Position numbers and translations under genes: made by a program. The notes beneath the pieces are model-generated. The model did not search any database and was not told the DNA's origin. It saw only the letters and a program-made list of their open reading frames with translations. From the NCBI GenBank assembly GCA_902803495.1, contig CADCPY010000052.1, positions 1-35,737 of the forward strand: a stretch of DNA of 35,737 bases, given 5' to 3'. This document shows positions 3,605 through 33,167 of the stretch, in pieces. Each line of letters starts with the position of its first letter. Position 1 is the stretch's first letter. The DNA is from an uncultured Erysipelotrichaceae bacterium. GTDB taxonomy: Bacteria > Bacillota_I > Bacilli_A > Erysipelotrichales > Erysipelotrichaceae.

Positions 3605-3690
3605 TTGTCGAACATACTCGGCAAAAATATGTGTATTTTGTCGAACACACTCGACAAAAAAGAGACAAAATTGTCTAACATATTCGACAA
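3605..3690. repeat. Three 20-bp dyads at exact 33-bp spacing (operator or iteron-like array)
   Basis: Copies start at 3605, 3638 and 3671, each 20 bp. The best copy is 3638-3657, TTGTCGA-N6-TCGACAA, a perfect 7-bp inverted repeat. Copy 1 has one change in the right arm (TCGGCAA); copy 3 has one in the left arm (TTGTCTA). All three are followed by AAAA. The 33-bp step is close to three helical turns, so the sites lie on nearly the same face of the DNA. A further dyad, AGACAA-AA-TTGTCT, overlaps copy 3 at 3663-3676. TTGTCGAA matches the published Spo0A-box core (TGTCGAA), and CGAACATA resembles half of a Gram-positive LexA box. Neither assignment is secure. Confidence 0.75.
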
Positions 3691-3876: not shown

Positions 3877-4380
3877 TCAGCTGTTCCGTGAGAGAAACTC
3901 GATGGCCTGCTCTTTATTCATGATGACAGGCATGCGGCTGTGAATCGGTTTCAGGCGTTCTGAGGCGTCTTTGGTGATGATGCAATAATGATTCGTTCCG
4001 TCGATATTCCGGTAAATGGCGCCCAGATACAGCGCCTCATTCTCGCTTGAGGAGATGTAGTGCTTCTTGCGGTTAGAATCCCACTCGTAGAAGCCGGAAA
4101 CGGGGACCACGCATCTGCGCTTCTGGAAATCGTCGGCATAGAAGTAGGAGTGCAGATTTTCGCTGCGGGCATTGATGATGAGCTTTTCCTTGAAAGGGTA
4201 GCCCCAGATCATCAGCTCCGGATACAGCTCGCCGTTTTTCAGCGTCAGGATGACACCGAGATTGCTGGGGAAGATCTCACCGACCGGAAAATCCGGGTTG
4301 GAATAGCGGAGGCGGACCTCTTCAATGATTTTCTTGATTTCCTTGTTTTTATTATCAAACAGCTGATATCTTCCGCACAT
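3877..4380 (-). CDS. SRAP / YedK-HMCES family protein (abasic-site DNA-protein crosslinker)
   Basis: 167 residues with every hallmark of the SOS-response-associated peptidase fold: Cys2 exposed after Met removal, N70 in NARSE, E99 in the GFYEW motif, and H147 in HSRMPVI. Known members (YedK, HMCES) form a thiazolidine crosslink between Cys2 and abasic sites in single-stranded DNA, shielding them. The protein is shorter than YedK (about 220 aa), mainly through trimmed loops. It starts 1 bp after the stop of the upstream 82-aa gene, so the two form one minus-strand operon. That operon's promoter carries the TTGAA-N5-TTCAA palindrome next to a LexA/HdiR-like repressor gene, which suggests DNA-damage control. 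Confidence 0.93.
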   Translation of the reverse strand: MCGRYQLFDNKNKEIKKIIEEVRLRYSNPDFPVGEIFPSNLGVILTLKNGELYPELMIWGYPFKEKLIINARSENLHSYFYADDFQKRRCVVPVSGFYEWDSNRKKHYISSSENEALYLGAIYRNIDGTNHYCIITKDASERLKPIHSRMPVIMNKEQAIEFLSRNS

Positions 4381-4381
4381 G

Positions 4382-4630
4382 TTACGACCTGCTTTCTACA
4401 AACCACCGCTCGTTCTCATAGTAAAGGGCTCTTTTATACCCGTTGATCATACAGGTATATTGTAACCGATTCTGTCCCTTTGCGGCATCGGAAGGATACT
4501 TGATGTTCAGAACCTTTTCGATGGCGTACTTGCGCTTAGCGTCCCACAGAATAAAAAGAGGCTTCAGATTGCCGTTTTTGTACTGTACCGAGACTACATC
4601 CACGTAAGTTCTGCGCATGTTCCATACCAT
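4382..4630 (-). CDS. Small conserved-looking protein of the putative SOS operon
   Basis: 82 residues from ATG 4630, or 78 from ATG 4618 (MRRTYVDVV). GGGAGG touches the first ATG (spacing 0) and lies 12 nt before the second, so neither spacing is ideal and the start is undecided. The sequence is basic and aromatic, with VDVVSVQYKNG, a LFILWD segment and a C-terminal ENERWFVE. It looks like a small beta-barrel-type fold and has no signal peptide. From memory, small proteins of this kind occur beside Y-family polymerases and SRAP genes in Firmicutes; I cannot confirm that here. It lies first in an operon with the SRAP gene. Function unknown. Confidence 0.75.
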   Translation of the reverse strand: MVWNMRRTYVDVVSVQYKNGNLKPLFILWDAKRKYAIEKVLNIKYPSDAAKGQNRLQYTCMINGYKRALYYENERWFVESRS

Positions 4631-4645
4631 CCTCCCTATGATTCC

Positions 4646-4674
4646 AGTATACTTGAAAATAATTCAATTTACAA
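4646..4674 (-). promoter_or_regulatory. Promoter of the 82-aa gene / SRAP operon
   Basis: Minus strand: -35 TTGTAA (4674-4669), 17-bp spacer, -10 TATACT (4651-4646). The start of transcription would fall near 4640, leaving a short leader containing GGGAGG. The spacer is almost exactly filled by the palindrome at 4653-4667. Confidence 0.65.
4653..4667. promoter_or_regulatory. Candidate SOS-type operator TTGAA-N5-TTCAA
   Basis: TTGAA (4653-4657), AATAA, TTCAA (4663-4667), lying between the -10 and -35 of the SRAP operon promoter and about 90 bp upstream of the XRE-S24 repressor gene. Read on the minus strand it is TTGAATTATTTTCAA, which matches the recA site (32085-32099) at 13 of 15 positions. 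Additional half-sites lie at 4682 (TTGAAC) and 4705 (TTGAAA). Confidence 0.6.
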
Positions 4675-4704
4675 CGTTAACTTGAACAAAAATAAAGTGT
4701 TTCA

Positions 4705-4734
4705 TTGAAATGCCTCTTTTTCCTATGGTAAGAT
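4705..4734 (+). promoter_or_regulatory. Possible promoter of the repressor-yqeG operon
   Basis: TTGAAA (4705-4710), 18-bp spacer, TAAGAT (4729-4734). The start site would then lie very close to the GGAGG at 4741-4745, giving an unusually short leader, so another promoter slightly upstream (for example with TTGAAC at 4682) remains possible. Confidence 0.4.
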
Positions 4735-25898: not shown

Positions 25899-26213
25899 AT
25901 GGCAGAGTTAAACTTAAGTGCAAGACAGATTTACGATCAGAAATTCGATGTGGAATTCAAAGGCTATTCCGCAGAAGAAGTTGATAAATTTTTGGATATG
26001 GTAATCGTTGACTACCAGTCCTTCGAAAGAGAACTCAGCGAACTTAAAAACAAAGTGACTTCGCTGGAACAGAAGAACGCGACTTTAAAAACTTACATTA
26101 TCGAACTCGAAGGAAAATGTAACAGCTTAAAGGAGCAGGCCCCGGTCAGCAGTTCGGACATTCTCAAACGTCTAAGCCGTTTGGAAGAGCTGGTCGGCAA
26201 TAAAGAACAGTAA
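25899..26213 (+). CDS. gpsB: Cell division protein GpsB (DivIVA family)
   Basis: 104 residues from ATG 25899 (AAGGGTG upstream); the GTG at 25890 is unlikely. The N-terminal DivIVA/GpsB domain reads LSARQIYDQKFDVEFKGYSAEEVDKFLDMVI and is followed by a coiled coil (about 40-75) and a short C-terminal helix. GpsB links class A PBPs and the division machinery; in B. subtilis it shuttles PBP1, whose ponA gene is divergently placed next door here. The stop codon lies inside the first helix of the RNase P RNA. Confidence 0.93.
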   Translation: MAELNLSARQIYDQKFDVEFKGYSAEEVDKFLDMVIVDYQSFERELSELKNKVTSLEQKNATLKTYIIELEGKCNSLKEQAPVSSSDILKRLSRLEELVGNKEQ

Positions 26214-26560
26214 CGTGGAGGCAGCCGCTGCCGCTTAGCGGTAGAGGAAAGTCCATGCTCGCACTGTCTGCGATGACAGTAGTGTTTGCGTTAGCTGAAC
26301 AAATAAGGCTAAGATGGCCGCGTGCCAGACGGCGGATGAACACCTAAGGCGAAAGCTATGGTAGTAGTCTATAAAAGTGCCACAGTGACGAAGTCTGCTG
26401 AGAAATCAGTAGAGTGGAACGAGGTAAACCCCGCAAGCGAGAAACCCAAATTTGGTAGGGGAATCCGGATGCCCGAACCTGAAGGGATACGGGACGCGAA
26501 AGCGTAGATAAATGACTGCCACCCGGTAACGGGGACAGAACATGGCTTATGAAACGTTAT
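26210..26560 (+). ncRNA. rnpB: RNase P RNA, type B
   Basis: Conserved blocks occur in order: GAGGAAAGTCCATGCTCGCA, GTAGTGTTTGCG, AAAGTGCCACAGTGACGAAG, GTGGAACGAGGTAAACCCC, GCGAGAAACCCAAATTTGGT, ATAAATGACTGCC and ACAGAACATGGCTTAT. This is the Bacillus-type RNA. The ends are set by P1, where GTAACGT (26210-26216) pairs with ACGTTAT (26554-26560). About 351 nt, slightly short for the type. It follows gpsB without a gap, as gpsB-rnpB do in B. subtilis. No own promoter is evident. Confidence 0.96.
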
Positions 26561-30659: not shown

Positions 30660-32084
30660 ATGAAAAAACTGGGGGAAAAACTGAAGAAAAAAAGAGAGGA
30701 AAAGCATTTGAGCCTGGAGGAAGTCTCCGCTCAGACGCAGATCACTCTGGGGTGCTTAAACGCCATTGAAAACGGCGACAGTTCCCATTTCCATGACGAT
30801 TTCTCCTATCTTCCTTATTATTTAAGACAGTACGGCAAGCTGTTGGGAATCCCGGAGAGGGAAATGGAAAGCGAGATCAAGCGGCTCAAAGGGGACATTG
30901 CGTCCGTTTCGGAAAAAGAGCTGTTTGAGAAAAGCGACAAAACAAACGGAGAGAAGGAAACGAAGAAGAAGTTCGATTTCCGTCACTTCACTCTGATCTG
31001 TACCATCCTGATTCTGGCCGCACTGATCCTTTACGTACTGATCCGCTACGTCTTCCCGTCCTTCCGCATTATCGATCCGCCGGAAGATGCGGTGGTGCCG
31101 GAAGTGACACCGCACGAGGAGTATGTGATCAGCACGGCAGTGCCGGAAATTGTGAAAGCCGGCAAGAAGGATTACAATATCTACGGATGGGAAGCGGACA
31201 AGGCCATTGAGATCCGCATGGATGTGTTCAGCGATGAGACATACATCGGACATGCCATTCAAAACGATGAGGAGATCAATGATCCGGAAAACCGCATCTA
31301 TTCCGCAAATGAAAGCGCGAAGTTTTATTATGTGGTGCAAAATGAGGATGTGCTCGTTCTGCATCTGTCCAAAATGGGCGAAAACCGCATCTATCTGAAC
31401 GGTGCGGAGCTGCCGATCGACGAAGAGAGCCGCAGCGACGACGGCGGGGTGCACCTGACCCTGCATGTTCTCACAAAGGAGGAAACGAATATGAACTTAC
31501 CTAACAGATTAACCATTGTACGTATGGTACTGATCCCTCTGATCGTACTGATCTATATCTTCCCGTATGCACAGTTCGGGATCAACCTCGGCGTGATCAA
31601 TATCGCCTTTGTCTCGCTTCCGGTCAAGAACATCATCATCATGGTGCTCTTCTGCCTGGCATCCTTCACGGACTTTCTGGACGGCTATATCGCCCGGAAG
31701 TACAACATGGTCACCACCTTCGGAAAATTCATGGATCCGATTGCCGACAAACTCCTAGTCAACACGTTATTCATCTTACTGGCCTGCGACGGCATCATTC
31801 CGTTTGTGCCGGTACTCGTCATGATCTGGCGTGATACGATCGTGGACGCCATCCGCATGATGGCCTCGGACAAGGGCAGAGTCATGTCGGCCGGCATGCT
31901 GGGCAAACTGAAGACGTTCTTACAGATGTTTACGATCATCTTCACACTGCTCTGCAACCTGCCGTTTGAGATCTATCAGTTCCCGTTCAGCACGTTCCTG
32001 CTCTGGTTCGCAACATTCATCTCCGTTGCGGGCGGCATCAGTTATTTCCTGCAGGCCAAGGATATCATCCTGGAAACCAAGTAG
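30660..32084 (+). CDS. RodZ-like protein fused in frame to PgsA
   Basis: 474 residues without a stop. Residues 1-75 are a RodZ-type HTH_25 domain (KLKKKREEKHLSLEEVSAQT, then YLPYYLRQYGKLLGI). A charged linker, one transmembrane helix (about 109-129, CTILILAALILYVLIRYVF) and a RodZ-like extracytoplasmic beta domain (to 277) follow. Residues 278-474 are a complete phosphatidylglycerophosphate synthase. In B. subtilis rodZ (ymfM) and pgsA are separate neighbours. The junction holds AAAGGAGG 8 nt before the pgsA ATG (31491), so free PgsA can also be made. RodZ supports MreB-directed elongation. Either a true fusion with two products or a lost stop codon. Confidence 0.85.
   Translation: MKKLGEKLKKKREEKHLSLEEVSAQTQITLGCLNAIENGDSSHFHDDFSYLPYYLRQYGKLLGIPEREMESEIKRLKGDIASVSEKELFEKSDKTNGEKETKKKFDFRHFTLICTILILAALILYVLIRYVFPSFRIIDPPEDAVVPEVTPHEEYVISTAVPEIVKAGKKDYNIYGWEADKAIEIRMDVFSDETYIGHAIQNDEEINDPENRIYSANESAKFYYVVQNEDVLVLHLSKMGENRIYLNGAELPIDEESRSDDGGVHLTLHVLTKEETNMNLPNRLTIVRMVLIPLIVLIYIFPYAQFGINLGVINIAFVSLPVKNIIIMVLFCLASFTDFLDGYIARKYNMVTTFGKFMDPIADKLLVNTLFILLACDGIIPFVPVLVMIWRDTIVDAIRMMASDKGRVMSAGMLGKLKTFLQMFTIIFTLLCNLPFEIYQFPFSTFLLWFATFISVAGGISYFLQAKDIILETK
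31491..32084 (+). CDS. pgsA: PgsA, CDP-diacylglycerol-glycerol-3-phosphate 3-phosphatidyltransferase (internal start)
   Basis: 197 residues from ATG 31491, preceded by AAAGGAGG (31475-31482) at 8 nt, the best Shine-Dalgarno in this region. It starts MNLPNRLTIVRMVLIPLIVL, the usual PgsA N-terminus. It carries the complete CDP-alcohol phosphotransferase motif D-G-x2-A-R-x8-G-x3-D-x3-D, from DGYIAR to MDPIADK (first Asp at residue 64 of this numbering). Four to five further hydrophobic helices follow. It makes phosphatidylglycerophosphate in the membrane. The frame is shared with the RodZ fusion. Confidence 0.88.
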   Translation: MNLPNRLTIVRMVLIPLIVLIYIFPYAQFGINLGVINIAFVSLPVKNIIIMVLFCLASFTDFLDGYIARKYNMVTTFGKFMDPIADKLLVNTLFILLACDGIIPFVPVLVMIWRDTIVDAIRMMASDKGRVMSAGMLGKLKTFLQMFTIIFTLLCNLPFEIYQFPFSTFLLWFATFISVAGGISYFLQAKDIILETK

Positions 32085-32099
32085 TTGAATTTTATTCAA
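32085..32099. promoter_or_regulatory. Candidate SOS-type operator at recA, TTGAA-N5-TTCAA
   Basis: TTGAA (32085-32089), TTTTA, TTCAA (32095-32099). The left arm forms the -35 hexamer TTGAAT of recA, so a bound repressor would block the promoter. It matches the SRAP operon site at 13 of 15 positions. Confidence 0.6.
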
Positions 32100-32113
32100 G
32101 AAAAAGGTAGAAT
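32085..32113 (+). promoter_or_regulatory. recA promoter
   Basis: -35 TTGAAT (32085-32090), 17-bp spacer, -10 TAGAAT (32108-32113). It begins right after the pgsA stop codon, so recA can be transcribed independently of rodZ-pgsA. Confidence 0.75.
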
Positions 32114-32159: not shown

Positions 32160-33167
32160 ATGGCAGACAAAAACAACGATGCTTTACTGGCCGAGGCCAT
32201 AAAGCAGATTGAAAAGCAATATGGAAAAGGTTCCGTCATGAAACTGGGGGACCGTGCGGGAGTGGACGTTGATTCCATCTCTTCCGGTTCTTTGGCCATT
32301 GACTACGCACTCGGTATCGGCGGATATCCGAAGGGCAGAATCATTGAAATCTACGGACCGGAATCTTCCGGTAAGACAACACTTGCGCTGCATGCCATCG
32401 CCGAAGTGCAGAAAAAAGGCGGCAAGGCAGCCTTCATCGATGCGGAAAACGCCATCGACCCGCTCTATGCCAAGGCACTGGGCGTGGATATCGACGAGCT
32501 GATCCTCTCCCAGCCGGACAGCGGGGAGCAGGCACTGGAAATTGCTGAACTTTTAATTAAGAGCGGCGCAATCGACTTAATCGTCATCGACTCCGTTGCG
32601 GCACTCGTACCGCAGGCGGAACTGGACGGCGAGATGAGCGACTCCTCCATCGGCTTACAGGCCAGATTAATGTCCAAGGCGATGCGGAAACTGGCAGGCG
32701 TGATGAACCGTACCGACTGTACGGCCATCTTCATCAACCAGCTGCGTGAAAAGATCGGCGTCATGTTCGGCAATCCGGAAACAACCAGCGGCGGCAGAGC
32801 CCTGAAGTTCTACGCATCCGTACGAATTGATGTCCGAAAGAGCGAAGCCATCAAGAGCGGCACGGATATCGTCGGTAACAAGGTCAACGTCAAAGTGGTG
32901 AAGAACAAGGTTGCTCCGCCATTCAAGACAGCGCAGATCGAGATCATCTACGGCGAAGGCATTTCCAAGCTGGGTGAGATCATCGATCTGGCCGTGAACT
33001 ACGACATCCTGCAGAAGAGCGGTGCCTGGTTCAGCTACAACGGCGAAAAGATCGGCCAGGGCAGAGAGGCGGTCAGAGCCTACTTAAAGAGCAATGAAGC
33101 CCTCGCAAATGAGCTCGAAGCCAAGATCCGCGCCAAGATGTACGGCAAAGAGGAAGAAGCCGCATAA
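32160..33167 (+). CDS. recA: Recombinase RecA
   Basis: 335 residues. Walker A is GPESSGKT at 66-73 and Walker B is [10 protein letters not shown]; the L2 loop has [23 protein letters not shown]. The C-terminus is short and acidic (KEEEAA). RecA forms filaments on single-stranded DNA for recombination and triggers self-cleavage of LexA-type repressors. One oddity is N97 in IDAENAIDP, where most bacterial RecA proteins have His (IDAEHALDP). GGAGG lies upstream of ATG 32160. Promoter with palindrome ahead; terminator behind. Confidence 0.98.

Follow-up and report, generated by a model that had tools for sequence, protein, structure and literature searches.

The stretch of DNA analysed here (the window) comprises the 35,737 nt of contig CADCPY010000052.1 (positions 1 to 35,737, forward strand; assembly GCA_902803495.1), and derives from an uncultured representative of the Erysipelotrichaceae (GTDB: Bacillota_I; Bacilli_A; Erysipelotrichales; Erysipelotrichaceae), a family of gut bacteria. 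The corresponding genome is a fragmented bin of 1.84 Mb in 195 contigs, 91.7% complete and with 5.5% contamination. In the window, the gene of an XRE-S24 repressor faces divergently an operon in which a SRAP gene sits behind the gene of an 82-aa protein, and recA is found on the same contig (Table 1). Homologs of the 82-aa protein adjoin SRAP and Y-family polymerase genes across the Erysipelotrichaceae, making it a candidate for a new damage-response factor, while SRAP genes have already been tied to SOS cassettes by gene neighbourhood (PMC3765255).

Table 1. Genes, predicted promoters and operators considered in the window.
Feature	Position	Strand	Basis or remark
SRAP (YedK/HMCES-type) protein	3877..4380	-	PF02586
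82-aa protein, first gene of the SRAP operon	4382..4630	-	no Pfam or NCBIfam family
SRAP-operon promoter (predicted), TTGTAA-17-TATACT	4646..4674	-	consensus match only; 82-aa/SRAP operon
Operator O1, ACTTGAAAATAATTCAATT	4651..4669		13/14 of ACTTGAA-N5-TTCAAGT; core 4653-4667
Operator O2, ACTTGAACAAAAATAAAGT	4680..4698		12/14; 29 bp from O1
Repressor promoter (predicted), TTGAAA-18-TAAGAT	4705..4734	+	consensus match only
XRE (HTH_3)-Peptidase_S24 repressor, 200 aa	4755..5357	+	Pfam domains; scissile Gly82-Gly83, dyad Ser117/Lys154
recA operator, AGTTGAATTTTATTCAAGA	32083..32101		12/14; core 32085-32099
recA promoter (predicted), TTGAAT-17-TAGAAT	32085..32113	+	consensus match only; -35 within operator
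recA	32160..33167	+	profile matches

The initial annotation had described two copies of a palindrome, TTGAA-N5-TTCAA, 13 of 15 bases being identical when they are oriented alike, and the window scan bore this out: the motif occurs exactly twice, as the cores of O1 and of the recA operator, against 0.10 copies expected from dinucleotide shuffles, and none of 100 shuffles of the window reached two. This motif is a real core, but the conserved operator emerging from the upstream regions of relatives is longer, namely ACTTGAA-N5-TTCAAGT. When the window was scanned with the longer consensus the best 14-base scores were 13, 12 and 12, followed by 10, and they included a weaker copy missing from the initial annotation, O2, whose exact distance from O1 is common among the repressor loci of relatives. 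The positions claimed for the two palindromes with respect to the promoters also held, since the first fills the 17-bp spacer between the predicted -35 and -10 of the SRAP operon, and the second contains the predicted -35 of recA, in a promoter lying about 60 bp before the gene.

Two further features were observed in the window. Between a PASTA-like gene and the end of the SRAP operon, at 3605-3690, a 20-bp palindrome (TTGTCGAACACACTCGACAA or a near copy of it) occurs three times with an exact spacing of 33 bp (0.02 expected by chance), which has the appearance of an operator array serving another regulator; the half TTGTCGAA presumably resembles a Spo0A box. A bacterial class B RNase P RNA lies at 26213-26554 (Rfam RF00011, 273 bits).

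The repressor and the search for LexA

The repressor carries the Pfam domains HTH_3 and Peptidase_S24 and no PF01726 LexA winged helix, and its best NCBIfam match, lexA (TIGR00498), covers residues 71-194 only, with 95.4 bits against a cut-off of 110.95. It is the only Peptidase_S24 protein above cut-off in the window's genome, the one weaker match lying in a 185-aa protein, read as a signal peptidase, whose gene is located two genes after an apparent trmD. Across 146 Erysipelotrichaceae genomes, matches to the LexA DNA-binding domain were all weak (≤31 bits) and fell mostly in frames whose length does not suit a LexA, and the family is therefore read from its sequences as being without canonical LexA. 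A canonical LexA elsewhere, which the initial annotation had named as evidence against its own reading, was thus found neither in the window's genome nor in the Erysipelotrichaceae.

From the 84,980 species genomes scanned, 80 repressor orthologs were retained, nearly all labelled as Erysipelotrichaceae, Erysipelotrichia or genera of Erysipelotrichaceae, with a few labelled only "Firmicutes", "Bacillota" or "uncultured bacterium"; cultured hosts among them are Holdemania filiformis, H. massiliensis and Anaerorhabdus furcosa. All 80 repressor sequences (window included) keep Ser117, Lys154 and the P1' Gly unchanged, along with the recognition-helix residues SFTT-QKWE. The scissile P1 residue is instead variable (G in 41, A in 34, T in 4 and C in 1), and with a Gly at this position the protein of the window, Gly-Gly, departs from the Ala/Cys-Gly rule of characterised S24 repressors (PMC8565304). 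The AlphaFold model of the repressor (pLDDT 84.7) finds its best structural matches in LexA, including LexA on RecA filaments, and its fold also matches UmuD and cI. The nearest phage repressors are 38-39% identical to the repressor of the window, which is consistent with a phage origin; that of Staphylococcus phage 2638A (NC_007051) shares 38.5% identity over 97% of the protein and the same domain order, but it is a prophage switch and no operator of this type was found upstream of its gene (best score 8/12).

Operators in the window's genome and in relatives

The upstream regions of the repressor genes (n = 81, window included) contain a site scoring at least 11/12 in 71 cases and at least 10/12 in all of them, while 179 permuted half-sites applied to the same 81 regions gave means of 0.19 and 0.97, respectively. 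The logo of these sites reads ACTTGAA-WWWWW-TTCAAGT, and the usual pattern in relatives consists of two operators, mostly 28-31 bp apart; such sites at the repressor's own promoter point to autoregulation. Sequence patterns identified the divergent partner as a Y-family polymerase at no fewer than 48 of 80 loci and assigned it to the 82-aa/SRAP type at 15; 16 loci were unclassified or cut off. Because many loci present the divergent polymerase followed by the 82-aa and SRAP genes, the window appears to carry the cassette of its relatives minus the polymerase. Exact CTTGAA-N5-TTCAAG matches inside coding sequences of other genomes, which are many, were left out of the counts.

The initial annotation had proposed a whole-genome search for further targets of the short motif. 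In pattern searches of the window's genome, TTGAA-N5-TTCAA gave four exact sites, a weak signal near background, and the signal is in the longer operator and its conservation rather than in the 10-base motif alone. The longer operator did match further damage-gene promoters: CTTGAA-N5-TTCAAG with at most one mismatch occurs in six places, of which four are SOS-type promoters, those of SRAP/S24, recA, uvrA and a UmuC/DinB-type polymerase, so that the random scatter which would have spoken against a regulon was not observed. The uvrA site lies 92 bp before the gene on contig C18, and the polymerase site just before a truncated gene starting MLEDRVYACIDLKSFYASVECVERGLDP on contig C89, read from its sequence as a UmuC/DinB-type Y-family polymerase; both contigs were placed in the window's genome by binning. 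Of the remaining two sites, one falls within dnaX and the other at the edge of a contig (C60:108), the latter being put down to chance. A reversed-pattern control matched seven places as compared to six for the operator, i.e., the site total is not above the control, and it is therefore the placement of the sites, not their number, that is informative. By a rough hand estimate, which assumes about 15 SOS-type genes with a promoter of 150 bp each, six random sites would give 0.007 matches at SOS-type promoters, perhaps 0.04 when AT-richness is considered, against the four seen.

Another locus of the window's genome (L154, contig C188) holds a Y-family polymerase that is truncated by the start of the contig and has an in-frame TGA; a near-identical N-terminus is encoded on C89 behind the operator. 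The small protein encoded after the C188 polymerase resembles YolD in our reading.

Of the 30 genomes with the repressor, 9 carry a site scoring at least 11/12 no more than 1250 bp from recA (permuted mean 0.12), and no such site was detected in the 12 Erysipelotrichaceae genomes where no repressor ortholog was found. Within 200 bp of uvrA a site occurs in 7 of 28 genomes (permuted mean 0.02), and in two more the operator stands before a small gene that immediately precedes uvrA. The counts at recA and uvrA are not fully independent, since several of the genomes involved are closely related to one another. In the repressor tree, genomes with recA and uvrA sites are spread over several distinct lineages. 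Conservation, which the initial annotation had expected upstream of recA, was thus encountered in part: the operator is present at the repressor gene in nearly all relatives, and in eight of them before pgsA, ahead of recA with or without cinA in between, but the position directly at recA seen in the window is not shared, no conserved operator having been found within 400 bp directly at the recA promoter of relatives. A recA relative was not found in three genomes that have the repressor (G018, G173 and G176), G018 being listed as 98% complete.

Palindromes of this kind might be produced by AT-rich promoters alone, and the near-background count of the bare motif in the window's genome would agree with such an origin, as would the location of two of its four exact matches inside the dnaX coding sequence and a tRNA-Ala gene, both put down to chance. 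Nevertheless, permuted half-sites reach a mean of 0.19 regions where the operator reaches 71 of 81, and the sites track the repressor gene, being absent at recA in the 12 genomes without a detected ortholog; a chance origin of the operator, ruled out by the shuffles and the permuted half-site controls, is scarcely credible.

It could also be supposed that the repressor is a local switch, controlling itself and the divergent polymerase/SRAP cassette as do HdiR in Streptococcus uberis (PMC8565304) and FddR in Francisella (PMC13148647), the matches at recA and uvrA being coincidental. In many relatives the operators are confined to the repressor/polymerase promoter, and most relatives are devoid of sites at recA (21 of 30) and at uvrA (19 or 21 of 28). 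The excess of sites at both genes over permuted motifs, the lack of recA sites where no repressor ortholog was found, and the match of both recA and uvrA in the window's own genome argue nonetheless for a broader role, and we regard a purely local switch as quite improbable. The sharing of one operator by recA, excision repair and translesion polymerase genes points, at the level of sequence, to an SOS-like regulon.

Membership of this putative regulon differs between species. In A. furcosa, uvrB and an HhH-GPD glycosylase gene are likewise preceded by the operator, as are a second polymerase and DUF5131 in H. filiformis; mraZ with an upstream site is a lead to a possible target. In two related genomes (G084 and G135; loci L128 and L129) a RhuM/Fic-domain gene that follows an adhE-like gene has a near-perfect or perfect operator 117 bp upstream of it, and may be a further target. 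One perfect site in A. furcosa adjoins another XRE gene, as might be expected if a different regulator bound ACTTGAA-N5-TTCAAGT and the S24 gene were merely one of its targets. The site at the promoter of the S24 gene in 71 of 81 regions, an arrangement typical of phage-type repressors that regulate themselves, and the finding of recA sites only in genomes with the S24 gene make a different regulator very unlikely.

Proposed mechanism and comparison with known systems

Taken together, the operators, their placement with respect to genes and predicted promoters, their conservation and their presence together with the repressor, and the intact dyad of the S24 domain suggest that an HdiR-like phage-derived S24 repressor very probably runs an SOS regulon through ACTTGAA-N5-TTCAAGT in the LexA-less Erysipelotrichaceae. 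The initial annotation had inferred a small SOS-like regulon run by the XRE-S24 protein; the sites, their conservation and the lack of LexA support the regulon, but it is not necessarily small. Given that no standard LexA is found and that a phage-type repressor and operator stand before damage genes, the SOS response was apparently reassembled under the control of another switch.

In the undamaged cell, repressor dimers bound to O1 and O2 would block the divergent SRAP and repressor promoters, and the repressor would also cover the recA -35 and the operators of uvrA and of the UmuC/DinB-type polymerase. Upon damage, RecA filaments would trigger self-cleavage of the repressor at Gly82-Gly83 by Ser117/Lys154, and the cleaved repressor would leave the DNA, with induction of the SOS genes and of the repressor gene itself. 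Binding, RecA-triggered cleavage and damage induction are inferred here, and self-cleavage followed by derepression appears the likeliest mechanism because of the invariant residues and the LexA-like AlphaFold model. The Gly found at P1 in the protein of the window and in roughly half of the orthologs might rather indicate that the regulon is governed by the S24 repressor but that a signal other than RecA removes it (heat, a Clp or COG2856-type protease, or an antirepressor). Invariance of Ser117, Lys154 and the P1' Gly in 80 of 80 sequences would be unexpected after loss of self-cleavage, orthologs with the usual Ala-Gly or Cys-Gly have the same operator, and the operator targets are DNA-damage genes; a switch of this type is therefore considered unlikely.

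The proposed RecA-responsive regulon has several counterparts. As compared to canonical LexA (PF01726 + PF00717; TIGR00498), the repressor shares the C-terminal S24 domain, the Ser-Lys dyad and the kind of targets, but its N-terminus is a cro/cI-type HTH_3 instead of a winged helix and its operator differs. HdiR of the Streptococcaceae (L. lactis, S. thermophilus and S. uberis) is likewise an XRE-S24 repressor of phage type from a group of Bacillota that have no LexA; it regulates its own gene and umuC-type polymerases, together with cinA-recA in S. thermophilus (PMC8565304). Compared by description only, the regulon of the Erysipelotrichaceae, a different family, would differ in reaching also SRAP, uvrA and uvrB. 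The non-canonical LexA described as restricted to Bacteroidetes combines a phage-like S24 repressor and a cI-type N-terminal domain with a classical SOS regulon, and its palindromes, GGA-N5-TCC and CTAA-N5-TTAG, have the same fixed spacer of 5 (PMC8565304) but different half-sites. FddR of Francisella is an autoregulated, phage-like S24 repressor whose gene diverges from that of its target (DinB in some species) and which has been proposed as the seed of a growing SOS network (PMC13148647), whereas its operator is GTG-N11-CAC and its regulon is much smaller, without recA or uvrA. In the open-licence literature searched, no regulator of the SOS response was encountered for Erysipelotrichaceae. 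As far as this literature goes, the family, its operator and the graded content of the regulon are new, while the mode of action would be that of HdiR, Bacteroidetes LexA and FddR.

In a wider reading, to which we give about an even chance, the Erysipelotrichaceae as a whole use the phage-derived repressor and ACTTGAA-N5-TTCAAGT in place of LexA, and living species represent successive stages of SOS rebuilding, from a divergent polymerase/SRAP switch only to the addition of uvrA, of pgsA-recA or recA itself, and of uvrB, the glycosylase and DUF5131, these gains being separate in different lineages. Since the content of the regulon differs among related species, stepwise regrowth of an SOS response from a repressor-polymerase seed (PMC13148647) becomes directly testable. 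If the proposed regulon is true, another phage-type repressor takes over the work of LexA and a SRAP/HMCES-type protein comes under SOS-like control, and the finding would name a regulator, its operator and testable targets for the family, including its cultured gut species H. filiformis, H. massiliensis and A. furcosa.
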